Shown here: positions 3,215 to 62,500 of the stretch, piece after piece
Numbering within the stretch: position 1 is the stretch's first letter
Layout of the letters: the number at the start of each line of letters is the position of its first letter
From: Geosiphon pyriformis
Lineage: Eukaryota; Glomeromycota; Glomeromycetes; Archaeosporales; Geosiphonaceae
Length of the DNA stretch: 64,000 nucleotides
Assembly (NCBI GenBank): GCA_016748015.1
Contig: JAAOMT010000523.1
Coordinates: 343,354 to 407,353, forward strand
Direction of reading: 5' to 3'
The notes under the pieces: model-generated
Database searches by the model: none
What the model was told of the DNA's origin: nothing
The model's input: the letters and a program-made list of their open reading frames with translations, nothing else
Made by a program: the position numbers and the translations under genes

Positions 3215-3419
3215 GTTACATATTTCGGGATATTGCATGATTGATTATTGCAATTAGGTTACATTTGTGTTATGTACAATTTGGGTTATTAATTAAATGA
3301 TAATTTTGAACATTTTGCTAATATAATAAGTGATAATTTGAAACAATAATATATGCTAATTAATGATAGAAATTATAAAAATAATTTCATGCTAAATAAT
3401 ATCTCTAATTTTGTCTGGT

Positions 3420-4407
3420 AACAGTGACTATAACTACAGGAAATCATGAGATTTGAGCATCTAAAGATTGATTTAGGGCACTTTTGTTTACATTGCCTGT
3501 AAAAATAACAGTTTATAATATAGGCATTCTATTAGATGGGATTGGTAAAAAAACATGTGTTATCAATCACTCACTTGATATTAGCAACTGGGTTTACTAT
3601 GCTGTGATTGGTTTTGAATCAGATCAGAAACTGGAATCTGTTTTTTATACAAAGCCAATTTTGGGTGGTGTAAGACTTTTATGAACTAGAATAAATTTGG
3701 TTTAGTGCAAAAAATGCAGATGTTTTGGGCATTCAGCTTTTAAGTGTAATATATTAGATGCATCAATCTTGTTTTCCTTAAAATCTTATAAAAGAATTGT
3801 CTTAAAAGAAAACTGTTTTTAGTTTGCCAAGTTATATGCAAAGAAAAGTGTTCTGATTTTTTGTTCTGTTGTCTTTGATAACAAATCTTAAGTACAGATA
3901 GTCTTACTTACTTTTTTTTCTGGTAGTTTTTATTTTAGTTTTGGTTTTGGTTCTGGTTTTCTTTTTTCTGGTATCTCAAATAATAAAGAGAGCACACTAA
4001 TTGTTCAAGATAGTTCTTTAATTAATAATTGTCTGGTGTTTTTGGAACATTTTTTAGAGCTTTTAGCTGATCAAATATTGAGTATTGTAAGAAAACTGAA
4101 CATAGTTGATTTAGTGTTTCTGGAATCTGTTTTTTGATCTTTTTCTTTTACTGTAATTGTATTTTTGAGTTTGAATTTGGGTTCAAATATGGTTTTAGAT
4201 GTTTTGTATATGTTTTTTATGACTCTTTTCTTAGTTGTGATAAAAACAACTTCAGCTTTAGGTTTGAGTAGTTTGAAAATTCTGACCACTAAAATGAACA
4301 GTTTGAAATCGAAATTGGTGGCTCTTGAGGTCTTTATTAGTTTTGTTTTGGTAAAGTTAGATTATTTGTGTACTGGTTCAGGTTTTCTAATATATTTTTT
4401 GTTCTAA
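3420..4407 (+). pseudogene. LINE ORF1 remnant (copy E)
   Basis: Contains FTLPVKITVYNIGILLDG then GKKTCVINHS (3483-3570), matching the second RRM-like segment of the intact-looking copies, and a complete CCHC knuckle C-x2-C-x4-H-x4-C at 3706-3747 (CKKCRCFGHSAFKC). A serine-rich linker and the C-terminal coiled region (about 4040-4400) follow. ORF1 proteins of LINEs bind the element RNA. At the ORF1/ORF2 junction the ATGA overlap of other copies has become ATAA. Several in-frame stops are present. Confidence 0.8.
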
Positions 4408-7400
4408 TAAATAATTTAGTATAGAAAATTGCTACATGTAATGTTTGTAATATTAATGTTCTAGTTAAACAAAAAGACATGGTGCACTGATATATAAGTT
4501 CTGATAACATGATTTCGATTATTACAGAAATAAAGTTAAAGTCTAATATTAGGCTGTAAATTATAAATAAGTTTGATGAAGTTCAGATTTTTACTTCTGG
4601 CTTGAATGAAAGTTTTTGTGGTGCAGATGTTGCAGTAATTATAAATAATTCTCTAATTCAGCATGTTTCTAAAGTAGATAAGATTCCTAGTTAATTGATT
4701 TCAGTGTATTTTTTTTTTCAAAAACAAGTTTTCTGTTACAATTTTGGGTCTATATACTGGTGTTTTTTCTGGCTTTAAGTTTGGACAAGCTTTGAAAGTT
4801 AATTTGTTTATTGCCAAAGTGATGAACTTCAATAGTTTTGTGGTTTTGAATGAGAATTTTAATAAATATGGGTCAAAAAAAAGTGCTAGTTACAAAAAGT
4901 GTTTGGATATAGGTCTAGTAAATTTACTTTATAAACATTTCTCAATAATAACTCTTACTTGGAGCAATTTTAGAGGTGTTAGTAAGATTATTGATTATAT
5001 TTTTGTTAGCAAGTGTTTGTTTTCAGCAATTGTATATTATGAGATTAACTGTGTATTTGAGTTTTTTGATACTGATTATATAGCAATCATGATTTCAGTT
5101 AGATTAAGTGGTCTTTTAGATGTTTAGTTAAATAATATTTACAAGCATGCTAATAAAAATTGGTGGAAGTTTAGAATTAATTGTGCTAATAGTGTTAAGT
5201 GGAATGGCTTTTATGACTTTTTTTCAGCCAAACTTTTTTTAGTGATAGACAGATTTGTTAATGTGAAAGTAAAAAGAAATCTAAATATAATATAGGAGCT
5301 TTTAATAAATGTGGTGGTAAAAATAGCTAATAAAATTTTTCTAAACATTGATATAATAAGTTCAAGAATTTATATAACAAACAATCATCAAAATTTTTTA
5401 AGTTAGAATTATTAGTTGTCAAAGTTGTAAAGTTGTTTGAATCTGGTAATAGTTCTGGGACTGATGCTCTCTTTTATATCTGGTTAGCTATTAATAAGAA
5501 TAGAGCTTTAAAAGTACAGATTATGCTTTATAACAATGCTAAATTATCAGATGTTTTAAGCTGTTTGTTTAGTATCAAAAAGTGTTATCACAAATCCAAA
5601 GCTGTTGAGACAGCTGCTATAAGGCATGTTATTGAAAAAAGGATAAAAAATTTTAGTTTAGATAAAAGTTATATGATCAAAAGTATATTAGAGAAACTTT
5701 TTTGCAAAGTAGTGCTGAATTATTTAATTATTAATAACAGTCTGATTTTGTGTTTTGGTAATGTTAAGTTTTATATTAATGTTATTATAGAAGATTGAAT
5801 TAAAAGACAGATGGTTTCTGCTTCTTTGTTCAGAAATTGGACTAATTAATATGTTCTTTTAAATTATGTGAATAATAATGTATTCTCAAACATTATGGGT
5901 GTTATTTGTTTGAAAAATTTGGTTTAGGTTGTTAAAAATTTGCCAGATAAAAAGACTGCAGATTTAAGTGACATTCTAAATAAGTTGTGGAAATATTGTA
6001 GTGATAATATTTTTAAGTGTCTTCTGAAGTTTTTAAAGTTTTGTTTGATTTTAGGTATGGTTCTGGTTTTGTGAAAAAGAGCATGGGTTTTGATGATACC
6101 TAAATCTTATAATTGAAATAGAATTTTAACAAATATTCAGCCTATTGTTCTGGTAAAAACTGTTAAAAAAATTCTTTCAAAGATTTTTTCAGACCAAATT
6201 TTCTTTGCTTGCAGTAAGTTTAATGTTTTTTGTGGAGATAATTTCTCAGTATTAAAAAGTACTTCTATACAGTTACCTATTTTTGTTGTTGGTTCAGTAG
6301 TTAAAAATACTTTAAAAAATAATAGGAAAGTTTAATTGGTTTTGCAAGATATGTGCAAAGTGTATGACTTTGTTAAATAATATTATTTGAAGATTAATTT
6401 GTGTCATATTAAAATGTGTAAAAAGTTTATTGGGTTTTTTGGCAGCATCTATAAGGATAAAATGAACAAAGTTATAACAAATTTTGGTCTTACAGATAAA
6501 TATTGGGTGTATAATAGACTTGATTAAAGTAAAGTGTTCTCTTTTTTTTAAAAAAAATCTTTTATAATCCTTTTTTATGTAAAATTAAAAGGCAGGATTA
6601 TTTGTGTGAACACTGAATTAATACTAAGTTTGTAACTAAAACTGGAAGAATAGAATTCATAAGAAAAACAACTTTGTTTTTTGTAGCTGGTGTATTTATA
6701 GATGATACTATTTGAATTGAGAATAGTCAAGTTTTTACTCAGTATATATTAAAGATTGTTAGTGAATTTTTTTTAATTAATAATATTTTCATTAATAATG
6801 ACAAAACAATGGCTATTTCTATTAATCAGAAGATTAAGAGTACATTCTTAATAGTTAACAAATCACTTATTTTAATTACCAAAAGTGGTGTTCTATACAG
6901 ATATTTGAAAATATTTTTGTCTACTGATGAGATGTCTAGGCCTAGTCTGGCTAAAGTGCAGTCTGATATTAGATTTTTTTCAAATATGGTTTTGAGGAAA
7001 ACTATCACAAATAAGCAGTTTTTATATCTGGTTTTAGCAGTTTTACAATCTATTATTAGTTATTATTTACAGTTCAGTTTTGTTTTTTTTGGAATCTGTT
7101 GTTAATGAGATATGTTAATCAGAAAAAGTTTTAAGTTAAAGGCTGAGTTGCTCTGTGACTTTCCAAGTGAAACACTGCATCATTTTTTGTTATATAATTT
7201 AAAAACATTTGAACATATTTAGACAAAAGAGAAGATGTTTTTAGCTATTGTTTTTGCAAATACTTCTGAAATTCTCAATTAGCTTTTTAAACACAAATTT
7301 TTGGATCTTCAGGTTTTGGGCTGGGCTTTCTTGAACTCATTGCAACATCTGATAAAGTTGTGTATTAGTTCTTTTAACAATTTTTTAATAGGAGTGGTGC

Positions 7401-9076
7401 ACATTTTTTTAGATAATGGCTTTTTATTGAACAATAATTTGTCTTGTATATTTTTTAGTTCTGGCAAGTTTTCAATATCAGATAATTTGGGAGCTTTATT
7501 GTATTATAAAAAAGTTGGATTCTTGAAAAAATTTGATATGACTTTTTGTAACAGACTTCTGGATAAACAGAGTAAGATTTTGGATTAAAAAACATTCCAC
7601 CATTAAAAAAGATTGAATTTCAAGAAGCCTATGCCTTCTTGGTTTGTTCTGGTCTCAGATTTTTTAAGCAATATTAAACATGCTCTGGTCTTTTTTGGTA
7701 CAATTTTTGGGTCAGATAGCAGTAATATTGTTCTGTTAAGTTAGTTTTCAGTTTTGAAAATTATCTCTATAAGGTGTGAGTGAATATAATTACTGTGTAT
7801 ATTGATAGTTTGTTAAAAAGTTTGGGTTCTTCTGCTGTCATTAGTGAAGCTGCTGCATATTTCTCTGAAATTGACATGAAGATTGGTATAAGAGTCAATG
7901 GTTTGCTGTTATTAACAATGACTGAGTTACAAACAGTTGCTCTGGCTTTGAAATGTGTGTTCTTTTTTTGTACTGTAATTGTGTATTTAAACAGTTAAGC
8001 TGCCATAGATGTATGTATCTTGGAATTGGAGATGTTGAATTCTGATTTTCAAAACTAATGCTGGATGAAAAAGATATACATAGTGAATTTGATTAGTGGC
8101 AAAAATCTTTTAGTGGTTTGGTTAAAGATTAAAAATTATTTTAATGTTTTAGATAATGTTAAAACAGATGCTTTGGCTAGTAAAACTGCTAGTACATTTC
8201 TGGTTCTTTTTAGTAATGTGTATAAATGATTCATTAAGACTAATAGTTTATTAATAGCTAGTAATATTTATCATTTTGTTTAGGATATTTATAGGTCAGT
8301 GTGTTATGCTTGTTGAGAGAATAGGTTTGGTTCCAAGATGCTAAATAGCTCTCTGGTTTGAAAATTGATTGAATTCAGACTGTTACAGTTTAACATCTGA
8401 ATTTATATATGCTGTCTGGTTTTACAAGTCAGACTACAGCTGGTTTGCATATGTATTTTATAAAAATAGTTTATAGAAAGTTGCTAATTGTTATTAGAAA
8501 AAGACTTTATAATAAAAAGTATCCAAGCATTCTGTATCTACAGTATAAAGAGATTAAGTTTTCTAATCATGTGTTCACATGTGCTAAAGAGTTTGATGCC
8601 CATAAAAAAATTTTGCTTAAGCAGATTGTAATTTGGAGATTTCTGATAAGGTTTTGTGTATCTATTTTTATTGTAGTAAAATCTTTTTATTTATGTTTAT
8701 CAGATATTGATCTGTATGCTTTTCTGTACAAAAGCTTTGTTCTTAAGAATTGGTATAATGAAACTGTACAAGCATTTAAAGATCATAAAAAGACCACTTG
8801 GATTTTGATTGGTTTTATACATGACTTGTATGAATAGTATTGTATCAATCTATAGAAGTTTAGATCTAAATACAGAGTGAATATAGAAAAATGTAGTTTA
8901 ATTAATAATTGTGAAATAATTCCTGATGTTTCTTGTAAATTGGCACCAATTTTGTTAGATAAAATAGTTAGATTGATTGATGTTAATAAGTCTTTTGGTA
9001 TTAGCTTTGGTTTTTGCAAGCCTTATTTGTTTTTTTCCAGTCTAAATAGTGAGATTATAGTTTATATAGGGACATA
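4407..9076 (+). pseudogene. LINE ORF2 remnant: endonuclease, RT, RNase H, zinc motif (copy E)
   Basis: Domain order is kept. Endonuclease remnants at 4430-5130 include NENFNK in place of GGDFNE and FDTDYIAI near 5065-5090. RT palm pieces run from about 5930 to 7130, with the catalytic box FIDDTI (6695-6710) still intact. RNase H lies at 7780-8210 (YIDSLLK, AAYF, ELQTVALAL). The C-terminal zinc region and tail end at 9076. Numerous stops and frame changes make this a fossil. It is closest in wording to copies A and C. Confidence 0.88.
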
Positions 9077-9800: not shown

Positions 9801-10111
9801 AATATTACAACATAAAAGACATTCAAAAACCAAATATTATAAGTCTGCTATTGAAAAAAATGAAAATCACACCTAAAATACACTTGTAATAGATATGATC
9901 TTTTAGAACACAATAATACAAAATGTTAAAATTAGATAAGATTTAATCAATTATTTGTTTATTTTTTACTTTACAATAACTAAACATTGTATTTATTTCT
10001 AATAAAATTAATAATTCAACTTTAATTTATCCAATAAAAACAAATAATACATATTATTATTACATATTATTTTTTTAAAATTTAATAAAATTTCTGATCT
10101 TAATTAAAGTT

Positions 10112-12961
10112 CTTTGAAGTGACAATTTTTTGGTGCTGAAGGGTACATCCACACAATCTCCAGTGTTTGCTGTCAGTTCGGTGATTGAGGATGCCATGGA
10201 GAAGAATAGGGAGTTATGGTTGGTCTTGCAGGATATGCGGAAAGCTTACAATTCAGTTGGGTGGCATTATTTAAGGGCTAGTTTGCGGCATGTCAAAATG
10301 TGTGAAAGGTTCATAAGATTTTTTGGTGGTATTCATGAGGATAGAGTTAATAAGGTAATGACTGACTTTGGTTTGTCTGGTGGTTATAAAGTGCATGATG
10401 GGCTGGATCAGGATGAAGTTTTTTCGCCACTTCTGTGAAGAATTTTTTATGATCCACTTTTGTGTAAGGTTAAGAGGCATGAACAATTGTGTGGATACTG
10501 AATTGATACTAAATTTGTTTCAAAGTCTGGCAGAATTGAGAGCAGTGGTGGTTTGACATCATATTTTTCGGCTAGTGCATTTATTGATGATACAATCTGG
10601 GTTGGGAATTGTCAGGCTTCTACTCAATATGCTCTGAACATTGCCAGTGAATTTTTTGTAATCAATAATATTTCTATCAACAGTGAGAAGACAGTAGCTA
10701 TTCCCATCAATCAGGGTGTTAAAGTTGCTTTACTGAGCATTTACAGTCAGCCAATTTCTATTGCCAAAAAAGGGAAGGCACATCAGTATCTAGGTATTTT
10801 TCTGTCAACCGAGGGGCTCTCCAAGCCAAGTGTTGCTAAGGCTCATGTGGATATGTGTTTTTTCATCAATGTTGTGCTTAGGAAAGCTATTACAGACAAA
10901 CAGTTCTCCTATCTGGTGTCGGCTGTTTTGCAGCCTATTGTTAGCTATCATATTCAGTTCAGTTTTGTCTCTGCTAATATTTGTTGTAAGTGGGATGTCT
11001 TGGTTAGAAAGGGTCTTAGGTCTAAGGCTTGTCTCCTTTGTGATTTTCCTGATACTGCTTTGCATCATCCCTCATTGTATGGTCTGAAGCTTTTTGAGCA
11101 GGTGCAGTCAGAGGGGAAGGTTGCTGCTCTGATAATGTTCTCTAATGCCTTTGGTATTTTTAGGCATTTGTTTAGACATAGATTTTTGGATCTGCAGGTT
11201 CTTGGTTGGGCTTTTTTGGATCCTTTGCAGTTTTTGGTCAGGTTGTGTGTTAGTCCAGTGAACAATTTCTTGGCTGAGATGGTGAAAATTTTTTTGGGCA
11301 ATGAGCTTTCTTTGGTGAACAACCTCCCCACTGCATTTCATAGTCCTGGTCATTTTCCGTTGTCCTCTATTCTTGAGAAGTTTCTGTATTTTGACTCGGT
11401 CAAATCTCTTAGACACTTTGATGTCACTTTTGGTGATCGGCTTTTTGATAAGAAAGGTGTTTTGTTGGATTGAAAAACTTTTCGTCATTGGAAGAGATTG
11501 GATCCGTGTGGCCCTGTGCCTTATTGGTTCTTGGTTTCTTCTGAGTTTTTGAAGAGTCAGAGTTGTTCATTTTCTGGTTCTATTGGCTCTGCAGAAAAGC
11601 TTGGTTTGGACATTTTGGAGTTTGGGGAATTTTCTGTGGTAAAAGATGGATTGTATGACATTTGGTCAGGCTTTTTTGAAGTTTTTACAGATGGGTCTTT
11701 GAGGAATGCAGGCTCTGCTGAGGTCATCTGTGGTGCTGCTGCATACTTCCCAGTCTTGGATAAGAGCATTAGTATTGCTGTTAGTGGCCTTTTGTCATCT
11801 ATTATAGCCGAATTGCAGACTGTCGCTTTGGCTTTAGAGTGTGTTTCTTCTTCAAGTACTGTGATGTTATGTCTTGACAACCAGGGTGCTATTGACGCAT
11901 ATGTGTCTGAGATGTCTTTGGTTGCCCTTGATTTCCGTAATTAATGCTGGCTGGAAAGGCGTCATATTTTCAATTTGGTTAGAGATAAGAATCTTAGTGT
12001 GAGTTGGATTAAGGTAAAAGACCACTCTGGGATTCCTGGTAATATGGAAGCTGACTTGGCTGCTGCAGCTGTCTCTGGATCTCCCTTTTCCCTTTGTGCC
12101 AATGTGTGTGAACATTTTTTGGTTGTTGAGGGTGTTGCTGTTTCTGGTAATGCCCGTCATTTTGTCAGGAATATTTTTCAGTTTGTTTGTTGTGTTCATT
12201 GGGAAGCTGGGCCTGATTGTGACATGGTTTCGGATGCGATGATTGGTTGCATAAACTGGGTTGTCACAGCAAAAGTATGGCATCCTGATTCTTATATGCT
12301 CACTGGGTTTACTAGCCAGATATCCTTAATGCTTTGCACTTATATTATGAAGGCTGTGCACAGAAGATTGCCAGTAGTGGTAAGAAAAAGGTTGTATAAT
12401 AAGCACTACCCTAATGTATTATGTTTGTTTTGCGGTAGGGTGGAGTTCTCTGACCATGCTTTTACTTGTGTTCATGAGTCTGGCATTCGTGGCAAGATTT
12501 TGGCTAAGGCTTCTGTCTGTTAGTCAGCTTTGGCTAGCAGTTCTCCTGCTTCTGCCATGTTCCGAGTTTTGTCTCAATGTTCCATTGATGTTGGGTTGTA
12601 CACTTTGGTTTGCAAAGGGTTTGTGCTGAAGGAATGATATAAGGAAGCTTGCAGTATTTTTGAGGATAGGAAGGTGGCAGCTACTCAGATCATTGATTAT
12701 GTCAGGTTTGTGGTTGAGCTATATCATGCTAAAGTGTGGTTAGCTAGGGCCAGCCACTGGGTGGTAATAGAGAAGGCTGGTCTGGTTTGTGACAGTGGTG
12801 TTGTTTCTGGGCTCTTTCGTGGTGTGTCTTCAGTTTTGTCTGATGGTGTTGTAAGATTGTTTGGTGTGGCCAATTTTTTTGCTGTTAGCTTTGGTTGTCA
12901 GAAGCCTTATTGTTTTTTTTCTGGTCTGGGTGGCAGTGTGCGGGTTATTATAAGTGTATAG
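10112..12961 (+). pseudogene. LINE ORF2, truncated: RT, RNase H and zinc motif (copy A)
   Basis: A single frame with no frameshift is interrupted by six stops (near 10436, 10499, 11471, 11942, 12521, 12635). Three replace Trp (TGG to TGA) and one replaces Arg (CGA to TGA). RT: LQDMRKAYNSVGW near 10230, catalytic box FIDDTIWVG at 10580-10606, so the active-site Asp pair is kept. RNase H: FTDGSL near 11690, AELQTVALALECV near 11810, DNQGAI near 11880. C-terminal zinc motif: CLFCGRVEFSDHAFTC near 12421-12470. The endonuclease and ORF1 were never copied in. Confidence 0.9.
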
Positions 12962-13098
12962 TGTTGCCTTGTCTGGTCTGAATGGCTAGCCACATGTAGA
13001 AAGTGCATGAATTGCATTTAGTTTGAGCCTCTTAGTTTGGTTCTATGTACTAAATAGTGATTGGGCTACACTCATTAAACATATTAATAAAAAAAAAA
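10112..13098 (+). mobile_element. LINE copy A, 5'-truncated, with 11-bp target-site duplication
   Basis: Flanked by TAATTAAAGTT at 10101-10111 and 13099-13109, which fixes the ends. The element begins inside the RT domain (just before DNFLVLKG) and ends with the family 3' UTR and an A-rich tail (about 13087-13098). Truncation from the 5' end is the usual outcome of target-primed reverse transcription. It is a C-like subfamily copy and is much less A/T-shifted than copy E. Confidence 0.92.
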
Positions 13099-13109
13099 TA
13101 ATTAAAGTT

Positions 13110-16074
13110 ATTTTCAAAGTTGTTTTATGTAACAGATTATTATAATTAAATTTATCTAAATTATTAATTATTTTATTAAATTATTAAATATTTTGAAAGT
13201 TATATAGTTTAAAGTATTATATAATTTAATTATTGCAGTTTGTTATTTTTGTGTATTATACAAATTAGATTAATTAAATAATAATATTTAATAATTTGTT
13301 AAAATAATAATATATATTAATTAATAATAAGAATTATAAAAATAATTTCATGCTAATTAATAATTCAAATAATATTCCAATAGTAATAAATGAATTTTAG
13401 ATTAATTTAAAAAAAACATAAACATATAATATAATTTAAGAAAATATTTATATTGTAATATAAACAAAAATTTTTATTATAATATTAATATTATTATATA
13501 ATTAAAATTAAAAAATTCACAAAAAACTAATTATAGTTAAATTAAAAGTATTAATAATTAATATATTAAAAAAAAATTTCGGTAATAATATATTTATTAA
13601 ATATTTAATAAAAAAAATATGTAAATAATTATTTTAATTTTATAAAATTACTTATAAATTGATTTAAAAAATATTTTTTAATAAATAATAACTTAATAAC
13701 TTAATAATTATTTATAATTTAATTAGAATTGGTTTTTTTATATAAAAATTAAAAATTATTACTTGATTTTTTTATTGTTATAAAATATAGTCTAATTATT
13801 AATTATTAAATAAAATTTAAAAATTTTAAATTAATTATAATTTATTTATTTTTTACATATAATTAGTTATTTAAACCAAATAAAATTATATTATATTAAA
13901 AACTATATTATTTAAAACTATTAATTTTTAGTAAAATATTATTAGCATATATAATATATAATCTAAAAATTTAAAAATCTCATATTTAATATATATAATA
14001 TTAATATAATTAATATTAATTATTTTTTTATATTTAATAATTGATAGCTTACTATAAATAATTTTATAATATAAGTTTTAAAATTAACAATCTTAATATT
14101 AATAAAGTCAAAATTAAAATATTAATTAAGATATTAAATAAAAATAGTTCTGTTTTAATCAATTTTATTAACCAAATTTATACTTAAGTAACTAGTAACA
14201 AATTTAATTTTCTATTAAATATAATTAAAATATTACATATTTTATATATAAAATACTAAAAATAATCATATTATTACAGTTATAAAAAAACAATATAAAA
14301 CTAAATCAAACCAAAAAAACAAGTTTTATTAATCAAATAATCAATTATTTTATTATTACATATATTAAAATATTTTTTAATCTTGATTTAATTTACTAAA
14401 AGTTATTTATTCTAAATAGTAATATCAATTTTTTATTTATTTAATATTTAACTTAAAAGTCTAACAGATATTAATTACAGCTATACTATTTGTAAACATA
14501 TTATATGATCACAATAAAAATGTATTTTAGAGCCAAAATAATTACTATAAATACAGTTAAAATAAATAATAATATATTATAAATTTCAATATTTATATTA
14601 TAATATATATAATTAAAATATGCAATTATATTACCAGTTATAAACTAAAATCTAAAGTTGTAAACTAATTTATTAATATAAGTATTAAAAATATTTACAT
14701 TACAAAAATTTAATTAATCATAAATATTTAATATAATAATAAATAAAAAATCCAAAAAAATATAAAATATAAAATTTAAATTCAAGATTATTTTATTAAT
14801 AATAATTAATATATTAAACAAAAAGTTAATACGAAGTTTATATTATATAGATATTAACTTTTTGAACTTTAATTATTATTTTTTTAATTAATTATTATAT
14901 TATCTTTTTTTATTAATTAATTTACAAAAGCAATATATAGTCTTTTAAAATACTTAACTAATTTATAAAAAAAGAGTTTTTTTAAAACTGTTAAAAAAAA
15001 ATTTGTATTATTAACAAAAAAATATATATTAATATTATTTATAGTAATATTAAATTTTTTAAAAAAACTTATTATATTTATTAAAAAAAATTAAAATGTA
15101 ATACTTTTTAAATAAATTAACAAATTTCTATTTTAAAATATAAAAATTTACAAATTTATAAGCAAAAAACAATTTTAACAAACCATTATTATTAACAAAT
15201 TTCAACACAAATAAAATTTTATATTTAGTCTAAATTTAAAAAAAAACTTAATGTTTTATAATAAAAGATAATAAAAAGTTTTAACAAAAAAATTATCAAA
15301 TAAATTTGTCTTTAAATAAAAAATTTTATAAATTAACTTGTTTTATTTATTTAATAATTTGTTATAAATAAAGTTAAATTAAGTATAATAATAAATAATA
15401 AAAACTAAAATTATTATAACTAAATAAATAAGCTGTTTATTAATAATTGTTTTTTATAAGACCAGATTACAAAAAATATAAATATTTAATTTAGCTTGTT
15501 TTAAATTAAAAACACTTAAACTTTTTATAAAAAACATAATACTTAAATAATAATATAATTTATTAAATTTAACTATATTAATATATTAATTACAAATAGT
15601 TAAGTTTATAGTTTTAACTTTTAGATTAATTAAAATTGTAATTATTTTTTATAATTAATTAAAATATTATATAAAAAAAAATTTTATTAGTAATATACAA
15701 AATTTTTTAAGTTATTACATAATAATTATTTATACATTTAATATTATTAACAAAAGTTTTAACTATAAAATATGAAATTATACTTGTAATTTAAATTGGT
15801 TTTTTAGTTTTATTAATAAATCAAGTATTCAATTTGTAATTATTTAGATTTAATTTTATATAACAAAAAATTATTTATATAAACAGAAAAAAATTTTACT
15901 TTAATTTAGATTATTATAAATCTTATAATTTTAAGATAAATCAAATTTATTGTAATAAAATTAACTCTTTCAAAATAAATATAACCAAAAAACTTTATAA
16001 ATTGTTTACATATCTTGATATAAAGTAAACTGTATTCTAAATACAATTAATTAATCAAATCAAATCATATATAT
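13110..16074 (-). mobile_element. Fossil LINE, RT to RNase H part, nearly pure A/T
   Basis: Open-looking A/T desert, but minus-strand translation is colinear with LINE ORF2. At 15960-16050 YIKICKQFIKFFGYIY matches VRIKMCDRFIRFFGSIH. At 15245-15540 LSVFNLKQAKLNIYIF matches LSKPSLAKAHSDVHFF, and TIINKQLIYLVIIIL matches AITDKQFSYLVSAVL. At 14470-14660 the RNase H region reads AYFNYIYYNINIE against AFFENINLGLGVG. It is the downstream continuation of the fossil at 17340-18608. No host gene is visible here; a perfect 13-bp inverted repeat lies at 14819-14864. Confidence 0.78.
14819..14864. repeat. 13-bp perfect inverted repeat with 20-nt loop
   Basis: CAAAAAGTTAATA (14819-14831) and TATTAACTTTTTG (14852-14864) are exact reverse complements, and further A/T pairing continues outward with a 3-nt bulge. 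It lies inside the fossil LINE; it may be chance in A/T-rich DNA or a small palindromic insertion. Confidence 0.5.
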
Positions 16075-17339
16075 TGTATAGTCATCTTCAAAATTAATGT
16101 CTGATTTTGGTGTAACAAAGTACCCAAACATATATTACTTTTTTGGACCAAAATTTATTTGTTTACTTCTCCATTACTTACTCAAATATTACACAAAAAA
16201 AAATCGGAATAAATATGCCTTGTACTTACTTTTTATTAACTATTAAAGATAAAGAAAAATTTTCATGTATTTTAAAAAAATGAATGCTGAGCAAATCACA
16301 AAAAAAATAAAGTGTAATCTTATAGCAATATAACATTTCATTAACAAGTATCAAAAAACTGGAAAAATCGAAAATTTACCATGATCTGAACACTTACCAG
16401 CTCTCAATAATCAAACAAAAAATGCTCTTTTACGAAAAGTTAAAAATGAATAATGTAAACCACTACAAGATATTGTTGATGATTTGAAACTTAATTGCAA
16501 TTTAATAATAGTCTGTTGAGTATTTTATAACTATGACATTCGAGATTATATTGCAGCAAAAAAGCCTTTTATTTCAGAAAAACAAGCAAAAACATGTATT
16601 CTTTAATGCAAAATAAAGATTTTTATTTTTGAAAATGAGTAAATTTTTCAGATGAAACCAGTATAAAAATTAGCAAACAATCTCAACAAGTTAAAATATG
16701 GTGTTATATAAAAGAAAGATATAATATTGAATACTTAACACTTAGCTTTAAAAGTGGTTAACAATCAATAATAGCTTAAGGATGCTTTGTTGAAAAACTT
16801 AAAAATCCATTGACATTTTGTGATGAATACAAGAAAAAAACGAAAAAAATTACAGCAAAAACATATTTTAAGATTATAAAAACCAATCTTTTACTATTTT
16901 TTACTGTTATTCATGATTTAATAGCAAGAAATTCAATATTTTAACAAAACAATGCTCTTATTCATAATGCTAAAATTACAAAAAAATGGTTCAAAAACAA
17001 AAACATTGAGATTATAGATTAGCCAGCCAGTTTTTCTAATCTAAATCTCATAGAAAATATGTGAAAAATAATGAAAAACAATATTTAAAAACATGAAAAC
17101 TTTTCAAGAACTATAGAGAAACTTAAAAGTGCTTTAAAAAAAAAGGTCAAGTTTTAATATGTCAGTTTTGAAATGAGTTATTTATTCAATACCACAAAGA
17201 ATTAAAACAATATTGGAAGCAAATAAAAGGCCAACACACTATTAATTATATATATATAAAAAGTAATATGTTTATAAGAATAAATCAAATAAACATTTAA
17301 AAAATAAATTTGAGCATTAATTTTGTAGGTAATTGTACA
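16075..17339 (+). mobile_element. Dead Tc1/mariner-like DNA transposon
   Basis: Degenerate terminal inverted repeats begin TGTATAGTCATCTTCAAAAT (16075) and, reading in from 17339 on the other strand, TGTACAATTACCTACAAAAT. Both contain a CAAAATTAATG block, and an AAACATAT(AT)TACTTTTT block lies further in. The transposase remnant on plus lies between. The element interrupts the minus-strand fossil LINE: LINE codons stop at 17340 (minus-strand upstream side) and resume at about 16074. Flanking TA is compatible with the TA target of this superfamily. Confidence 0.78.
16200..17250 (+). pseudogene. Tc1-like DDE transposase remnant
   Basis: HTH-domain remnant around 16355-16480 (KTGKIENLP, then PALNNQTKNALLRKV, QDIVDDLKLNCN). 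Catalytic core: FSDETSIKI near 16640-16675 (first Asp present), NNALIHNAKITKKWF near 16950-16995, where the family has DNAPxH, so the second Asp is now Asn, and SNLNLIENM near 17035-17065, where the family has PDLNPIENxW, so the third acidic residue is Asn and the Trp is a stop. These are G to A changes. Many stops and frameshifts are present, so the gene is non-functional. Confidence 0.78.
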
Positions 17340-18608
17340 TATTTTAAAACACTAGTTATAGTTTTTAGTTTTTTTTAAAGCATTTTTTATAATAGATTTA
17401 ACAGTAAAAATAAATATCTAAATAAATGTATTTTTTGGAACCAAAAAATTGTTTTTATATAAAATATTACAGACATAATAAACAACCAAAATTTTATTTA
17501 ACAGAATTTTTAAAAAAATTTTTCTGGTTATTTTAATTAAAACAATTAATATATATTAGTTAATATATTTTTTTATTTATAAAACTTAAAAATTATAGAA
17601 ACTTATATAATCTTTTACTTATTTGATATTATTTTTTTATTAAATAAATATTTAACAATAATAATAATAAATAGAACAAAACATATTTGTTATAATATTT
17701 TCAAAATTTATTAAAAATATTAAACAAGCTAGTTATCTTATTATTTAAAAGATTATAAATTACTTTGTATAACCTATTTTTAATAATACAATTTATAATC
17801 TCAAAAAATATTATCTACAATATATACCAAAAAAACATATTAAGCTGTTTATATTAAAAAAAAATTATTAAATACTATATAATATTTAATCTAATTTTTT
17901 ATAATAGTATTAACTTAAACATAATTGATTAGACTTTAAAACTAAATTATTATTTGAAATTAAATAGTTTAAACCTATTTTTTTAAAGAGTTTATTTGAT
18001 ATATTCTTAATTATGTATTTTTTATTTACAAAAAAATTGTTTATTTCTTAATTATAAATTAAATGTTATAGTTTGTTGTAATTTTGGTCTTAGGTATTTT
18101 ATATTACCAGTATTATTATTTAAAAATAGCCAGTTTTTAAATAATTTATTTTAAACAATACTTTTTTAAAATTATATCTCTAATAGCAAAAACAGTTAAT
18201 ATATTTAAATTAAGCCAAAATTTTAACATCATATTAGAATTGTTAAAATTACTTAAGTTAAAAATTTTATTTGTAATATTTAATATAATATATTTTAAAT
18301 TTTTATTTGTTTTTATTAATCTGTTTTTATATAGCATTAAATTTACAACTAAATAAACTTTGCTAAATAATTATATTAAAAAATTTACTAATAGATAAAA
18401 TTTCTTAATTTACAATTAAAAAAAATTAAAGAATTATTAACAAATAAATAATCAATAATTTTTTTTACTTCTTATAATTTAGACTATATTAAAGCATTTA
18501 TTAAAAAACAACTATACAAAAAGTTAAAAAATTCGAATCTAAATACTATTTTTATTAAAATTGTTATTTAAAACTATAAATAAGTTATTATTTACAGCTT
18601 TGATTATT
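17340..18608 (-). mobile_element. Fossil LINE, endonuclease to RT N-terminal part
   Basis: Minus-strand translation continues an old LINE. From 18608 downward VNNNLFIVLNNNFNK matches VNKTSFVILGGDFNE of the endonuclease. Near 18470 KKIIDYLFVNNSLI matches AKMIDYVLVSSSLV. The 18146-18337 ORF ends AIRDIILKKY, matching AIWDIVRKIM. At 17350-17460 NNFLVPKN, then IFIFTVKSIIKNALKK, matches DNFSVLKG, then SPIFAIGSVVEDALEK. Copy B was inserted at 18608 and the Tc1-like element at 17340, so one fossil is cut into three blocks. Confidence 0.78.
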
Positions 18609-18744
18609 TTTTTTTTTTTTTTTATATTTTAACGAGTGAGGTCCAAACGCGACCTAGTGCTATACATCATACAAATGATCTAAACTAGGTGCAAATCATG
18701 CACTTTCTACACGTAACCAGCCACTTGGGCCAGTCAGGACTACA

Positions 18745-21700
18745 CTATACACTTATATACACAAAAACCAAATCTCCAATACCTGAAAAAAATGGACAAA
18801 ATTTACGAAACCCAAAACCAACACCAAATGCCTTAGCCACCCCCAGCAATCTGACCACACCAGCCAAAAGCACCTTAGACAAACCAGAAACCGAAGCAGG
18901 AATGGAGCCATCACTTGGAATCAAACCATGCTTCTCCATAAACGCTCGGTGTCTGGCCCGGACCAACCAAACATCATCCCAAAATGCTAAACAAAACTCA
19001 TGCACAAAGCTCACAATCCTCTTAGCACCCTCTCTAGAATCTTTAAAGACCGAGATAGACTCACGAAACCATTCATTGAAAACAAAACCCTTACACAAAG
19101 CAACACTAACTCCAACCTCAGAAACACAAGAAGCTAAGGCCTATAAGACACATGAAGAAGAGCGAGAAAGGCCAGAAAGAGCCTCCCAAGTTGAAGCATG
19201 TGTGTCCAACAAACGAGCACGGCCAACGGCATCCTGAGGACACGAAAAGACATGATCCGAGGTCTCAACATCACCACAAAACAGATAGACCACACTGGGG
19301 TAACTCCTGTCATATAAACGCTTGCGCACAGCAACAGGAAGCCGATGATAGAGAGCCTTCATAAAGTAAGTACGACATCCCGCCATGCGCATGCTGGTAA
19401 AACTGGATGCCAAGTGAGAATCAGGATGCCATACCATAGAAGACATAGACCAATTGACATCAGCATGCAAACTATCATCCATAACACGAGAACCCACTCC
19501 AATCTCCCAACAAGCTCAGTAAAACGACCGGAAAACATCACGAACAAAGTGTCTAGAATTACCAGAAACCACCGTGCCACCAGCACATAGAAAACATTCA
19601 CTGACTAAATGAGGTAGGTGCCAAGCAAAGTGAGCAGCACCCTTGGCAAGTGCATCAGCATGCTCGTTGCCTGAGACACCTGAATGACCTTTCATCTTAA
19701 CCCAATTCACATCCAAATTCTTTTGACGAATGATGGTGGCAATGTGACGACGCTCAATCCAACAGCAGTTCCTGAAATCCGGACAAACCAGCGAAAACTC
19801 CAACCTACATGCATCTAAAGCAGTCTGGCTATCTGAGAACAAGTCAATCGAACGAGAAAAAGGAACACACTCAAGGGCCAAAGCTATGGCCTGCAGTTCC
19901 GTCAAAGTAAAAGAAACCAAACCAGACACCCCAACACCCAAACCCAAGTTAATGTTCTCAAAAAAAGCAGCAGCACCTGCTCTCATGGCAGCAGTGCCCA
20001 GACCAGAAAGAGACCCATCCGTATATACAGAAAGGCGGGCAGCATCAATGGTTGGCAAAATGTCACGAATCACACCAAAATTATGAGAAAGACGAATATC
20101 AGACACAGCTTGACCATCTACCAAAGAAGAACTTGAGGAGAGAGGAACAATACCACCAAGAAAGCAAATGGAAAAATCAAACCAGAAAGGGACTGGGCCA
20201 CGAGGGTCTAGCCTTTTCCAGCGTTTGAAGGTACCCCAACTGAAAACATCACCATTACAGTCACGAAGCTGTTCCACGAAAGCAATTCCATAACGCCTAA
20301 ATGAAGAGATGCACTTGAAAAAACAGGATTCACCAAGAACCAAAGACATAGGAGTACCACACTGACGATGAAAAGCACAATCCAGAGGGCCTCCCAAAGA
20401 CAAATCACACCCAGAAAAAATGCGAACTACACCCGCCAAAAAATTATCCGAAGGACTGATACCAACACAAACCGGAAACAGCAAAGGATGATGAGGACGC
20501 CAACTGAAAATCTGGAGGTCATGAGACCTATGAGAAAACAAGCGACCCAAGACACCAGTAGAATTCGCAAAAGCAACAACGGAAGCCGATTTACTCTTAG
20601 TCTGTATCTGTTCGAAAGTTTTTAAATTGTACAAAGAGGGGTGATGAAGTGTGTCACTGGGAAAATCATGTGGCAACCCAGACTTGGACTTTAAGACCTT
20701 GCAAACCAGAGCATCCCNNNNNNNNNNNNNNNNNNNNACCAAGAACCAAAGACATAGGAGTACCACACTGACGATGAAAAGCACAATCCAGAGGGCCTCC
20801 CAAAGACAAATCACACCCAGAAAAAATGCGAACTACACCCGCCAAAAAATTATCCGAAGGACTGATACCAACACAAACCGGAAACAGCAAAGGATGATGA
20901 GGACGCCAACTGAAAATCTGGAGGTCATGAGACCTATGAGAAAACAAGCGACCCAAGACACCAGTAGAATTCGCAAAAGCAACAACGGAAGCCGATTTAC
21001 TCTTAGTCTGTATCTGTTCGAAAGTTTTTAAATTGTACAAAGAGGGGTGATGAAGTGTGTCACTGGGAAAATCATGTGGCAACCCAGACTTGGACTTTAA
21101 GACCTTGCAAACCAGAGCATCCCATTTACTACAAACACCAACAGAAACAAAACTGAACTGAGTCCTGTAGCTGATAATAGGGAAAAGAACTGCAGACACC
21201 AAATATGCACACTGTTTGTCCGAAATTGTCTTTCTTAAAACAAGATTCGCAAAGAACCGTACATCAGCCTGGGCCTTAGCCAAGCTGGGCTTCGAAAGAC
21301 CCTCAGAAGACAAAAAAATACCCAAATAGCAATGAGATTTCCCTCTCTTGGCAATAGAAATAGGTGCACCACTGATAGTCAAATGAGGATCTAGCACCCG
21401 GCAATTGATGGGGATGGCCACCATTTTGTCATTGTTTATAGAAATATCATTAAACCTAAAAAACTTGCTAGCAACATCAAGGATGCATTGTGTAGCAGCC
21501 TGGCTGCTACCAACCCAGATAGTATCATTGACAAAAGTGCTGGCAGCAAGAAACGAAGACAGTCCAGCTCGAGGATCCACCCAGCCAGTCCTTGATATGA
21601 AATGAGAATTCAACCTGTAGCCATACACACTATCCTGTCTCTTGACCTCACACAAAAGTGAATCATAAAAAATATGCCAGAGAAGAGGCGAGAAAACTTC

Positions 21701-23839
21701 CCCTTGATTCAGCCCATTGTGGACACAATACCCATCAGTCAAGCCAAAGTTGGTTATTACTTTGTTGATGCGACCATTGTGAATACTGCCAAAAAATCTA
21801 ATAAACCTGTCACACATTTTGATCCTGACTAGACTCCTCCTAAGATGTTCCCAACCAACCGAGTCATAAGCCTTGCGCATGTCCTGTAAAACCAGCCAAA
21901 GTTCATGGTTCTTTTCCAAGGCATCCTCAACCACAGAACCGATAGCAAAAATGGGAGATTGAGTTGTCATACCCTTCAAAACCGAAAAATTGTCCCCACG
22001 AAGAACATTAAAAGTGCTGCAAGCCAGAGAGATCTTATCCAAAAGAATTTTGGAGAGAATCTTGCGGGCCGTTTCAATTAAAGCTATAGAATGGGTGTTT
22101 ATGAGAACTCCCTCCTATTCATATGGTTTAGGAATCATCGAAACCCAAGCTTCTCTCCAAGGCCCAGGGACCGACTTGCCAACCAAACAGAAATTCAAGA
22201 GCACCAAAAGCATATCCAAAACAGATTTGTCACAATGTTTCCATAATTCATTGAAGATACCAGAAAGACCAGCCGCTTTTCCATCAGGAAGATCCTTAAC
22301 AACAGCTAACAACTCATCAAAACTAATCAAACACATGACATCAGAGAAAGCACCATCAAATACGTAATCCAGAGGCCGATATTGACGGGCCCAATCCTCA
22401 GATAAGTCAGACACCACCTCACGTTTTCTGGTCCATCCCTCCATAATTTCGTCCACCTTAGACTTAACCAAATCAGGCTCTAAAATCAACTCATCTTCTA
22501 AAACCAAATGATCCAGGACCACTTTGTGAAGAGGATGCTCCAAAACACTCCTAATGGTATGACCCTTGTTCAGCTCAAAACTCTCCATTCTCTTACCAAT
22601 AGCTTGCTTGATCGAGGATTCCTCAGTGCGCTTAAATTCCGCTAACTTGAAGGAGCGGTATGATTTTTTAGCTTTGGCCAGTGCAGAGCAAATAAGATCA
22701 AAATTAGAACCTGAAAGAAATAGAGACTTAACCACTGATGCACCAGGAGAGTCGAGTCTGTGCCACACTTCCAACAAAGAAGCAAAACCATCACTAGAAG
22801 CCAAACGTGAAGCCTTAACCAACTTAGAAACCAGCAGCTTCAGCTTGTGAAACCTAGAAGAAGTCTTGGTGAACATGCCATCAAAATCTTTGAACCATTT
22901 TTTCTTAAATGTACCACCCGCCGAAAGAACCATAATCTTGCGAACAATGTTCCACATAGCATCCACATCTGAAAATTTTACAGCCATACCGAAAGCATCT
23001 AAGAACATAGAGACATTAGCAGCTGAGACATCTCTGAACTTCAACCACTTAGCTTCATTGGCACTTTTGACGTCAAACTTCCAATGATCTTTATTCGCTT
23101 GCTTGCAAAGAGAATTCAAACGCGTATCCAAGAGCCCACCCAGACCCAAATCCACTGAAACAGCTTGATGGTCTGTGTCAAAATGCTCATTGACATTCAA
23201 AACCTCACGACGCACTATCACATTGACAAGACTTAAGAAGACAAACACATAATCAATTGTTTTCTTAACGTCCCTAGAATTTTCTCAAGTGGGCATTTTT
23301 GCAGCCAAGCTGCCAACTAAAGAATTGACCAGACCCAAATCAAAGCATCTTTTGAAACTTGCACTTTTATGAGAGCCGTCTTCATTAAAATCGCCACCGA
23401 GAATGATGAAAGAAGATTTGTTGACAGTCTTTGCAATGAGAGAATTGATTTCATCAGCTTGAGAAAACCAAACCATCAAAGAAGCACCAGCATAAAGCCC
23501 CAAAATTGACACAGAAAGTTTATTCTTAAAAAGTAATTTAATGGAGAGGAGCCGACCAGGCACCTCAGAAATCTTGCACATATGACGAGCCAAAGAAACG
23601 TCCATAATAATAGCAACACCTGCACCCAAGTGACCAGAGTCTAAACCAGAAGTGAACACTCGGACACCATCGAACTTGTCTGCAATCCACGGACGAACCC
23701 TACTCTTTAATTTCATTTTAGTAATGATAGAGACTAAATTGTTCATTTCCTTATGCCACCTAATAATGTCTTCTTGCTTAGCAGGATTGTTCATGCCCCT
23801 AACATTGCACGTAGCAACTTTCCAGACTAAACTGCTCAT
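18745..23839 (-). pseudogene. LINE ORF2: APE endonuclease, RT, RNase H, zinc motif (copy B)
   Basis: ATG at 23839 overlaps the ORF1 stop (ATGA). Endonuclease: CNVRGMNN, GGDFNEDGS near 23390, FDTDHQAV near 23180. RT: PDGKAAGLSG near 22280, LQDMRKAYDSVGW near 21870, catalytic box FVNDTIWVG (Asn codon 21527-21529), so the first active-site Asp is lost. RNase H: YTDGSLSGLG near 20010, TELQAIALAL near 19900, SDSQTALDA near 19830, GNEHADALA near 19660. Zinc motif: CGDVETSDHVFSC near 19270. Internal stops: TGA near 23283 (Trp), TAG near 22113 (Trp), TGA near 19515 (probably CGA), TAG near 19138. The N gap at 20718-20737 splits the frame artificially. The enzyme would nick DNA and prime reverse transcription. 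Confidence 0.93.
20332..21123. other. Assembly artefact: 386-bp exact duplicate around a 20-N gap
   Basis: Bases 20332-20717 are repeated exactly at 20738-21123, separated by 20 N (20718-20737). Both copies encode the same RT C-terminal segment (DALVCKVL to GTPMSLVLG), and removing one copy plus the Ns restores a continuous frame. This is the usual result of two overlapping contigs being scaffolded without merging. Confidence 0.95.
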
Positions 23840-25629
23840 TGAGTAAGAGGTAGAGATACCGAAAGCGCACCTAAACTGTCCACTTTGGCCGAAAGGCCCA
23901 GAACTGTTTCTATTAGACACTTCATGCTGTCTTCCAGCTTAGACACTAATGACATATCAAAAGACACTGCTCCCACGACATTCCCACCACTAGTGAACAC
24001 ACTCGAACCCTCACTTATCACTACATCTGCCCCTTGATCCTGTGATGAAGGGGTCACCAACAGCTGACATCCAGGGCTAGGCTGGGAAACCGTTGGCCTG
24101 AGTGCATCCAACCTCTTAGCCAGCTTACCAACTTGCTCCGCAAGGCTGGCGAGACTGCGCTCAAGAGCGGCGAACCTATCGTTGACTTCCATCATAACCG
24201 GTTGGGACGGCTTCATCTCTGAAGAGGAGCCATTTGTTACCACAACATTCTGACTAGAGAGGGGGAGCGAAAAAGACCCGCGAGCAACCTTTGCCCAAGA
24301 AAGACCACCAAAAGAGACTGGATGGGCAACTGGAGCCAAGCGTTTGGCATAGATGGTTGCCAGCCTGCTTTTATCCATATCTGAGAAAACCCTACACAGT
24401 GAACTACTAGAAGACAATTTCCCACCAACTGCACAACCCAATGACGTGTGACCCAATTTCTCACACTTGGTGCATTTAGCAGAAATGAGGCAAGACCAGT
24501 GGAGATTGGTGTTCCTGAGTACTGGCGTGGTTCCCACAGTAGCATCCAATGATTCAGCAGAGTCGAAACAAACAACAGCACACCTGGCCCGAGCATACGT
24601 AACAGAATAACAATCAATGACGCACGTTTTCTCACCCACAGATCTAACAAAGTCCCAGATATCATGAGCATTGGTTCCCATCGGCAACGTATAAAGTAGC
24701 GCCCTATGTTGGTCCCTAACATCCCATGCTTTCTTGTCTGAATCAGCCCTAGTCATATGCACAGCATCTTTCCCGATTAAGATGGACTACTCAGCTGCAG
24801 CCAAATCAGCCTGATCCGATCATTTAAATTCCACCACCGCCTTCTGCCACAGCCCGATTAACTACATTTTGATCATCCTAATAACTCCAAACTCGGATAG
24901 CACAGCACGCACAGCCTCAGACAATGTTCCAACTGGAATTTCTTTCACAACCACAGCCCAATCTGATCACCCAGATGCTTTTTTGAGATTAGCGTTTACT
25001 AAGATCTTCGCATTTGCAGCTTTATCAGTAGTTTTCATTAGACTCGATTCGGAAGTGAACGTCGCCCTGATGATTCCTGAGAATTTTAAGGGGGTAGATG
25101 CCCCCCCAAAACCATTGATTCCAAAAAACAACTTCCTTACCACCACAAGTTTTTCCTGAGAAGATTTGCTGGCCACTTTATCCAAGCCAATATCCAATGC
25201 GAATGATTTTCTGACTGAAACATTGACCAAATTTCTCACAGAAGGAGGGAGCTCAAGAGAAGCATCTGAGAAAACACTATCATCACTACCATCTTTTAAG
25301 AAGTCAATTTTTCTCAATGGCTTGCCCAACGCCTTTTTGGTTTTAACCTTCGAACTTGTGAGTATCTGATCATAATCTCCACCAGCCAGAGTTCCACTTT
25401 TACCATAATCAAAGCTGGTTTCCTCTACTAGACACTCCTCTTTCATATCAACACTTTCAGACTCAGTAGTGTCCCCATTCTCCGAACCCCATGAACAAAC
25501 ACCAGGAACTTCAGCAGCAACCCTTCCGTTATCAACACCCTCTGCCAACACACTTCTCTTCCTCTTTTTCCTTGATGCAACCACTTTAAAACCACTCTCA
25601 GAACCAGAAACTTTAGCAGTCTTTTTCAT
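23836..25629 (-). pseudogene. LINE ORF1, RRM-like and CCHC RNA-binding protein (copy B)
   Basis: Starts MKKTAKVSGSES at 25629 and ends PLTQ at 23836; about 597 codons. A basic N-terminus is followed by a conserved segment with VVRKLFFGINGFG and SGIIRATFTSESSL, then two RRM-like segments (VVVKEIPVG...; ALLYTLPMGTNAHDIWDF). An intact CCHC knuckle CTKCEKLGHTSLGC lies near 24435-24480, followed by a Ser-rich linker and a C-terminal heptad-like region (LEDSMKCLIETVLGLSAKVD). Four stops lie between 24967 and 24762, at a probable CGA or Gln or Trp codon in three cases. It probably coats element RNA. The RRM-like reading is from pattern, not a profile search. Confidence 0.85.
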
Positions 25630-25774
25630 AACAGCAATAACAGAGCCAACAGTGGCCTCATAATTGAAAAACGGTTTTGATTTATCATACTGAATGGTAA
25701 AAAACTTCTTTCAAAAAAAACTTTTGACTCTTTTTTGAGAATTTTGGACGAAGGAAAGAAAGACGTTTTTTTTT

Positions 25775-37079: not shown

Positions 37080-37407
37080 TAAAAAAAATTATCAATTAAT
37101 TTAATATTTTAAAAAATTTTAAAATTATGTGTAATAATATTTATAAACAAAGTAAATAATATAGTTTTAAATTTATTTTTTGTTTTCAAGTTGTTCAATT
37201 TTTATTAATCTTAGCTATACATATTAAATTTTTGGTAATTAAAAAAATTACTTAAAAGTTAATAAATTAGTTTAATTTAATTTAGCAAATTTTATTACAG
37301 TTTTTTATTATAACTTAATTAATTATAATTGAATTAATACAACTTTTTTAAATTTGAATAAGACTAAAACAATTACTTTTTTAAAAATATTTATAAATTT
37401 TTTTTAA
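37080..37407 (-). mobile_element. Fossil LINE ORF1, downstream of copy C
   Basis: Minus-strand translation from 37407 downward reads IFKKVIVLVLFKFKKVVLIQ, then KTVIKFAKLN, LLTFK*, TILFTLFINIITHNF, aligning residue by residue with LPKLAVDSAFFKFSKIVLIK, KAVVEFAKSE, QLASKW and ALLFTLPVGTTAYDL of LINE ORF1. It is the other half of the fossil at 44222-44480; copy C lies between. Confidence 0.75.
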
Positions 37408-37545
37408 TTTTTTTTTTTTTTTATTCATTTAACGAGTGAAATCCAACCACTACCTAGTACATAGAATCAAACCAAGTGGCTCAAACTAAATGTGATTCAT
37501 GCACTTTCTACATGTGGCTAGCCACTTGGGCCAGACAAGGCAATA

Positions 37546-62365: not shown

Positions 62366-62500
62366 TGTTGTTCTGACTGGTCTGGGTGACTGGTCACGTG
62401 TAGAAAAGACATGATTCACATCTAGTTTAGATTATTTAATGATATATTGTACTAGGTAGTGTTTGGACTTCACTCATTAAATGAAATAAAAAAAAAAAAA

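Follow-up and report, generated by a model that had tools for sequence, protein, structure and literature searches.

Several systems are described in which fungal transposable elements (TEs) accumulate C-to-T changes. Neurospora-type repeat-induced point mutation (RIP) turns C into T on either strand of repeated DNA and leaves AT-rich relicts. Repeat-enriched AT signatures are reported almost only from ascomycetes, with a shared preference for CpA (PMC12543289), and RIP has been reported absent or undetected in Gigaspora margarita (PMC8647823, PMC7082362). In Zymoseptoria tritici, Dim2-dependent mitotic C-to-T mutation is linked to methylated TEs and falls at CpA (PMC8016269), and in TEs of Basidiomycota such as Microbotryum a C-to-T bias at CpG and TpCpG has been tied to a Masc2-like DNMT1 and attributed to deamination of methyl-cytosine (PMC4352252). 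CpG methylation of transposons, high at most TE loci and lower in old degenerate copies, is documented in the arbuscular mycorrhizal (AM) fungus Rhizophagus irregularis (PMC8647823). Here we analyze an A/T desert with a GC content of about 10% over much of positions 13110-18608 of a window (the whole stretch of 64,000 nucleotides analyzed), which belongs to a genome assembly of 124.7 Mb in 406 contigs. This desert is a genuine relict of a long interspersed nuclear element (LINE) on the minus strand at 13783-18604, and related copies elsewhere in the genome reveal the directional process that erodes such elements.

The identity of the relict rests on colinear alignments with LINEs of the same window (LINE A to LINE E, Table 1). 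When the whole desert was aligned as DNA with C-to-T changes scored cheaply, the scores for LINE A, B, and C were 746, 854, and 856 on its minus strand but 431, 356, and 378 on its plus strand, and none of 60 shuffles exceeded 510. Six stretches lie in LINE order, and each scores above all of its shuffles (20 or 100) for at least three LINE references. Only 1 of the 16 pairings in this piecewise set, 13110-13955 against LINE E, failed to outscore its shuffles (26 of 100 did equally well), and the post-reverse transcriptase piece 14400-15127 stood barely above them against LINE B (33.1 versus 32.8). In tblastn searches with 15 LINE pieces from the window as queries and low-complexity masking off, the best hit scored 79.0 bits at 15648-15217 without and 57.4 bits at 15621-15217 with composition statistics, whereas the best of 50 dinucleotide shuffles reached 25.8 and 26.6 bits.

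The initial annotation of this DNA had already recognized a LINE in the desert, and this observation is partly confirmed. The peptides that it quoted do follow the LINE order along the minus strand and have LINE counterparts in the window (KNALKK at 17387-17370, QFIKFFGYIY at 16004-15975, and INKQLIYLV at 15444-15418). Its claim of colinearity from endonuclease through reverse transcriptase (RT) to RNase H draws its support at both ends from the DNA alignment; at the protein level, only the RT and the linker preceding it exceed shuffles, and tblastn places the endonuclease end at 23.5 bits and RNase H at 22.7 bits, at or below shuffle level. The relict keeps only the end of the endonuclease-position open reading frame (ORF; 18604-18264), where it meets LINE A at 18603, while two of its stretches, 14461-14632 and 13957-14396, correspond in the DNA alignment to LINE A sense 5664-5837 and 5931-6390, which by their coordinates overlap the RNase_H domain. 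Reading all of 13110-18608 as LINE was too wide, since 16041-17332 is a Tc1/mariner-like insertion and about 670 bases at 13110-13782 are not attributed to a LINE. Nor are indels as rare as had been supposed: the alignment has 21 gap openings in 1616 columns, and about 0.23 kb and about 0.44 kb are missing relative to LINE C (at least two deletions). Within the unattributed part, the AT-rich segment 13191-13370 is about 70% identical to 3207-3409 beside LINE E and is perhaps another repeat.

The desert alone could not settle the direction of change: even among the LINEs of the window, 7-18% of purine/pyrimidine states differ from those of LINE A (B 7%, D 15%, C 17%, E 18%). Direction shows more clearly in other copies in the genome. 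A genome search with the RT of LINE A gave 97 scored matches out of 5968 candidates, and loci were cut for the best 30 of these 97, the first being LINE A itself; of the other 29, all aligned to LINE A, 26 were gapless, with identities of 0.886-0.940 and purine/pyrimidine identities of 0.992-0.999. Sixteen of the 30 loci, grouped by transversions and hereafter called young copies, were polarized by a 75% majority, with the other 14 GC-rich loci kept outside the polarized counts. Their mean pairwise transition-to-transversion ratio (Ts:Tv) was 30, and the polarized changes comprised 584 G-to-A and 502 C-to-T (sum 1086) as against 52 A-to-G and 35 T-to-C (sum 87) and 45 transversions of all kinds. 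Both strands are affected, with 0.069 of C and 0.056 of G changed. A strong directional C-to-T process thus acts on both strands of mobile DNA, in large excess over reverse changes and transversions. Since C-to-T and G-to-A are about equal, strand-specific editing of RNA or cDNA is rejected.

The process is most active at CpG and extends well beyond it. Rates in the young copies were 0.18 for CpG, 0.063 for CpC, 0.044 for CpT, and 0.042 for CpA, and the CpG figure is an underestimate because the most decayed CpG sites drop below the majority rule (a 90% rule leaves too few CpG columns in this group, with 32 cells). Across the 133 columns that read CG in at least one of the 30 copies, 1389 of 3942 cells are CG, 1167 are TG, and 1144 are CA. 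Removal of all these columns from the 16 copies left 721 C-to-T changes, 60 reverse changes, and 43 transversions, and non-CpG C-to-T change amounts to 0.047 per C/G site versus 0.0012 transversions per site, a difference of about 40-fold. Outside CpG, a C after a pyrimidine was hit 2.23 times as often as one after a purine (bootstrap 2.02-2.48), the ratio being 2.13 in the other 14 GC-rich copies, and TCC, CCC, TCA, and TCT were the highest contexts. This context rule is neither that of classic RIP nor that of CpG methylation alone.

Older copies and the desert can be arranged as later stages. The observed/expected (o/e) ratio of CpG is 0.34-0.59 in the 30 GC-rich LINE loci and 0-0.25 in all 29 older loci (L042-L070), which are the top non-self hits among 150 scored matches and do not include the window's own copy L041. 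The GC content of these older loci runs from 0.39 down to 0.16 at uniformly low CpG, so CpG goes fastest and the other C/G positions follow later; LINE E is an intermediate stage of the same decay. In two desert pieces, C-to-T change reached 0.70 and 0.76 of conserved C/G sites and transversions 0.13 and 0.05 (111 and 78 C/G sites), conserved sites being taken from 1162 columns that LINE B and C have in common with the 30 GC-rich copies (95%). The spectrum of the desert is thus strongly skewed without being clean, and the family differences among the window LINEs account for part of its transversions.

Among surviving cytosines of the desert, the ApC/TpC ratio is 2.19 (best of 500 single-base shuffles, 1.33), and these survivors thereby fit the pyrimidine-C preference of the young copies. 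The ratio is 0.86-0.91 in LINE A-C, 1.01-1.53 in eight older loci, and 2.76 in a second relict at 62510-64000; other AT-rich stretches of the window gave 1.34 (26000-27900, LINE scraps), 1.22 (29000-32000), 1.24 (44000-45000), and 1.79 (54000-55000). LINE A-C have a composite RIP index of -0.76 to -0.87 and LINE E one of -0.22; the values are 0.00 and 0.08 for the older loci L044 and L052 and 0.31-0.38 for the deserts.

As a gene control, we compared 13 kinase paralogs from two contigs, out of 146 PF07714 matches, with pairs counted if their identity exceeded 85% (no pair involving L078 had more than 300 aligned bases). Across the 36 resulting pairs, Ts:Tv was 1.00 (1.20 at third positions), so that even the closest paralogs, with up to 95% identity across about 600 bases, are spared. 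All 13 kinases keep a CpG o/e of 0.53-0.87, compared with 0-0.25 in the older LINEs, so CpG is depleted in TEs and not in the genes tested. The process looks targeted to the mobile DNA tested, sparing the gene family tested, and not like general drift.

The Tc1/mariner-like element nested in the RT of the relict offers the clearest example of the process and obeys the same context rule as the LINEs, though it is an unrelated element. Its transposase stretch (window 16834-17109) scores 27.7 bits, under the Pfam cut-off of 28.6 for DDE_3, and sister copies on contigs C199 and C274 reach 61.8 and 59.6 bits. A 25-nt inverted pair, 80% complementary, lies at 16075-16099 and 17315-17339, with the second arm extending into aligned LINE. 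Together with 8 others (of 32 non-self rows), the nested copy was polarized by the majority of nine and showed 126 C-to-T or G-to-A changes, 2 reverse changes, and 6 transversions. Four clean sisters (L084, L085, L086, and L089) carry 1, 11, 9, and 6 C-to-T or G-to-A changes with 7, 5, 10, and 10 transversions and 3-5 reverse changes, and the remaining four copies carry 39-46 with 8-11 transversions and 0-3 reverse changes. With loads of 1-126 at similar transversion counts, the C-to-T load of a mariner copy is not set by its age as read from transversions. Polarized by the four clean copies, 134 of 397 C/G sites of the nested element are changed, at rates of 0.51 for CG, 0.41 for YCH, and 0.20 for RCH. 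The load of the surrounding relict (0.70-0.76) exceeds that of the nested element (0.34), figures that rest on different yardsticks, and this greater decay of the LINE than of the mariner that landed in it suggests that the process continued here after the insertion. Flanks of C-to-T-laden copies tend to be CpG-poorer than those of clean ones (15 flanks). As a separate observation, L087 and L090 share 28 C-to-T sites (of 56 and 58) with 2 transversions between them, through hot spots or common descent after mutation. The view of the initial annotation that a directional C-to-T process rather than ordinary drift made the desert is thus supported, and it is borne out mainly outside the desert itself, by the 16 young LINE copies, the nine mariner copies, and the kinase control.

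We consider 5-methylcytosine deamination in silenced elements, joined by a non-CpG component, to be the cause with a probability of about one half. Cytosines in transposon heterochromatin would be methylated by DNMT1-type enzymes, and the resulting 5-methylcytosine would deaminate over many nuclear generations in regions where repair may be poor. CpG, as the maintained methylation site, would decay fastest, and a weaker activity on non-CpG cytosines that prefers C after a pyrimidine would carry the elements down to about 10% GC; this second component could reflect either non-CpG methylation or a distinct mutator. Our preference for deamination derives from the CpG methylation of TEs shown in Rhizophagus (PMC8647823). 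The genome does hold candidate enzymes, with 10 matches to the C5-methyltransferase family PF00145 at 7 places. Compared with solved structures, two of three candidate pieces are closest to DNMT1 and one is about equally close to a bacterial enzyme and DNMT1, while others appear DNMT2-like by eye (motif reading); four pieces searched against NCBIfam gave no match over its cut-off. Loci L031, L033, and L035 (C318:788280-789372 and 820713-821336) represent two similar C5-methyltransferase genes about 32 kb apart, with stops in the matched frame that may mark introns, and L039 (C346:422414) is a candidate DNMT2-like fragment, again by motif reading, some 15 kb past the right-hand border of the window.

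The main rival, which we regard as unlikely though well worth weighing, is an active RIP-like defense in which a dedicated enzyme would convert cytosines of recognized duplicated DNA in bursts, targeting CpG and pyrimidine-C instead of CpA. The wide span of mariner loads at 5-11 transversions is burst-like, and the action on both strands as well as the roughly 40-fold excess over transversions outside CpG would suit such an enzyme, as would the CpG-type bias published for Microbotryum (PMC4352252). However, highly similar kinase duplicates were spared, there is no preference for CpA, and composite RIP index values are negative in LINE A-C and E, about 0 in L044 and L052, and positive in the deserts. 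The heavier decay of the relict than of its later mariner suits continued action, within the limits of the two yardsticks, and no RID-type gene was identified among the 10 PF00145 matches in a comparison set that held no RID reference. Of the two candidate causes named in the initial annotation, 5-methyl-C deamination accordingly suits the fast loss of CpG, whereas a RIP-like process fits loosely.

An improbable alternative is that an AID/APOBEC-type cytidine deaminase or UV-like damage edits element DNA and so creates the 5'-pyrimidine preference seen in the top non-CpG contexts. CpG is nevertheless the top context overall, and both strands are affected with no strand runs of C-to-T or G-to-A in the young copies. 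Tandem CC-to-TT changes number 17 versus 17.5 expected, and this lack of excess speaks against UV damage. Close spacing of changes is near expectation in most of the 16 copies (the extremes being L008 with 11 of 500 shuffles as high, L002 with 34, and L029 with 498), which together with the missing strand runs speaks against a processive deaminase. The APOBEC_N profile gave no genome match at E up to 1, a weak test in that the model gives a match in just one of 14 control genomes and there, too, stays under its cut-off.

Still less credible is a general AT-biased mutation across the genome, under which LINEs and mariners would drift untargeted toward an AT-rich equilibrium. The window is indeed AT-rich and holds other deserts, such as 29000-32000 (17% GC), of which 29000-31000 shows little LINE similarity. 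Yet the kinases, with a Ts:Tv of 1.00 and a CpG o/e far above that of the older LINEs, and the clean mariner copies, with 1-11 C-to-T or G-to-A changes at 5-10 transversions where the nested copy has 126 at 6, contradict general drift. Basecalling or assembly errors at modified cytosines that mimic C-to-T change can be set aside as the least probable explanation, because 304 of the 1086 changes occur in a single copy each, where systematic error would be expected to hit the same words repeatedly, and because the changed share reaches one third of C/G sites in the nested mariner and more than two thirds of the conserved ones in the desert, even if the assembly has flaws in this region (a run of 20 N at 20718-20737 between 386-base exact duplicates).

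Several observations weigh against deamination of methylated elements, or against parts of the evidence for a targeted process. Two copies, L008 and L029, hold 43 of the 87 reverse changes of the young set, and the young copies were picked by similarity to LINE A, which makes their similar loads uninformative on burst versus clock. With LINE A as reference, the older copies show a weaker pyrimidine preference (hazard ratio 1.2-1.5), perhaps because this reference is distant, and surviving cytosines of the nested mariner show no ApC excess (AC/TC 1.03). CpG is not wholly lost from the desert, which retains a few (o/e 0.31 and 0.20). The 5-11 transversions per mariner copy are small counts; one laden copy, L090, has a flank like that of a clean copy, and LINE-protein matches were found in 0 of 15 mariner flanks. 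Kinases are under selection and, as one gene family, form an imperfect neutral control. CpG methylation alone does not account for 0.047 C-to-T changes per non-CpG site, and we know of no DNMT with a 5'-pyrimidine preference. Finally, a 2026 review gives 5-methylcytosine as near-undetectable in early-diverging fungi including Glomeromycota (PMC13297926), contrary to the measurement in Rhizophagus.

The remaining features of the window are collected with the relict in Table 1. LINE A, which abuts the relict, is a natural copy of which a part served as alignment anchor; it carries RVT_1 (44.6 bits, cut-off 29.6) and RNase_H (46.8 bits, cut-off 25.8) domains, and its endonuclease-position ORF gave no Pfam match at E 0.001. 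The run of 20 N within it is flanked by an exact direct duplication of 386 bases (20332-20717 = 20738-21123) and is probably an assembly artefact. A continuation of the relict past LINE A was rejected, as 25660-26430 gives no LINE signal above shuffles, and so was one past LINE D, where 9212-10100 carries a piece of a LINE in the opposite orientation. AT-rich DNA at 9300-9800 (plus strand) and 26691-26962 (minus strand) contains short LINE fragments that score above shuffles against LINE C. The stretch 29000-32000 combines its low GC content with a CpG o/e of 0.53, and 29000-31000 is at or below shuffle level against LINE A and C and slightly above it against LINE B (36 versus 30). With so little LINE similarity, not every AT desert here need share the origin of the relict, and 29000-32000 perhaps has a different one.

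Table 1. Coordinates of the LINE relict, its parts, and other elements in the window.
Feature	Position	Strand	Evidence and remarks
LINE relict	13783..18604	-	Colinear minus-strand alignments above shuffles; 5'-truncated near end of endonuclease-position ORF; GC about 10-12% outside nested mariner
Relict: end of endonuclease-position ORF and following linker	18264..18604	-	DNA alignment 75.6 vs LINE E (best of 100 shuffles 33.7); tblastn not significant
Relict: linker to start of RT	17333..18054	-	LINE A sense 3063-3788; 285 (best of 20 shuffles 34)
Relict: RT core	15128..16040	-	LINE A sense 3826-4755; tblastn 57-79 bits; 225 (best of 20 shuffles 32)
Relict: post-RT region into RNase H	14464..15001	-	47.6, 53.0, 58.1 vs LINE A, C, E (best of 100 shuffles 32.4, 33.7, 32.6)
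Relict: end of RNase H and C-terminal region	13957..14396	-	LINE A sense 5931-6390; 71.8, 80.7 vs LINE A, E (best of 100 shuffles 35.2, 32.9)
Relict: 3' end	13783..13896	-	LINE C 5850-5967; 71.3 (best of 100 shuffles 38.2)
Tc1/mariner-like element in relict RT	16041..17332	+	About 1.29 kb; bounds set by the break in the LINE alignment between 16040 and 17333
LINE A	18603..25660	-	GC about 43%; abuts relict; ends approximate
LINE B	56150..62505	+	GC about 40%; ends approximate
LINE C	37400..43400	-	GC about 40%; ends approximate
LINE D	10104..13106	+	Tail to tail with relict
LINE E	3400..9000	+	GC 27%, CpG o/e 0.02; ends approximate
Second extreme LINE relict	62510..64000	+	GC 9.5%; just after LINE B; matches LINE A sense 3066-4856; AC/TC 2.76

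Traits of the genome bear on the likely host. It contains a chitin synthase match of 821 bits, and a search for the fungal type-I fatty acid synthase domain, which does find a match in Corynebacterium, found none. Loss of type-I fatty acid synthase, a genome of this size, low GC content, and expanded kinases are typical of AM fungi. The AM1 primer, on the other side, matches nowhere in the genome with up to 2 mismatches, which argues against some AM fungi provided that the assembly contains rDNA. The host is a fungus and probably an AM fungus.

Set beside the described systems, this is a known kind of decay, the C-to-T erosion of repeats, with a new context rule. It resembles Neurospora-type RIP in affecting both strands of repeats and in leaving AT-rich relicts, and differs from it in having no CpA or CpT preference, in sparing duplicated kinases, and in the negative RIP index of the GC-rich LINEs. 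With the Microbotryum-type bias it shares CpG as the strongest context, but here a strong non-CpG 5'-pyrimidine component continues down to about 10% GC; with Dim2-dependent mutation in Z. tritici it shares C-to-T change in TEs, but the target there is CpA. For CpG methylation of TEs in R. irregularis, the consulted text of PMC8647823 offers no mutational consequence (0 occurrences of "deamination" or "transition"), and a literature search by title and start of abstract returned no description of such a pattern in Glomeromycotina. We tentatively propose, as a possibility that falls short of an even bet, that the locus exposes a TE-targeted C-to-T mutator outside Dikarya, in a probable AM fungus, with a target rule of its own (CpG, then pyrimidine-C), that scores negative by CpA-based RIP indices in young and middle-aged elements and turns dead transposons into AT deserts.

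If the host is an AM fungus, a strong directional C-to-T process acts on its transposons, and RIP indices based on CpA miss it until the last stage. Such a process would explain the origin of some of the AT deserts in this genome, and a simple test for it is to compare copies of one element and to set C-to-T changes against transversions. TE ages estimated from all substitutions in genomes of this kind would come out too old.

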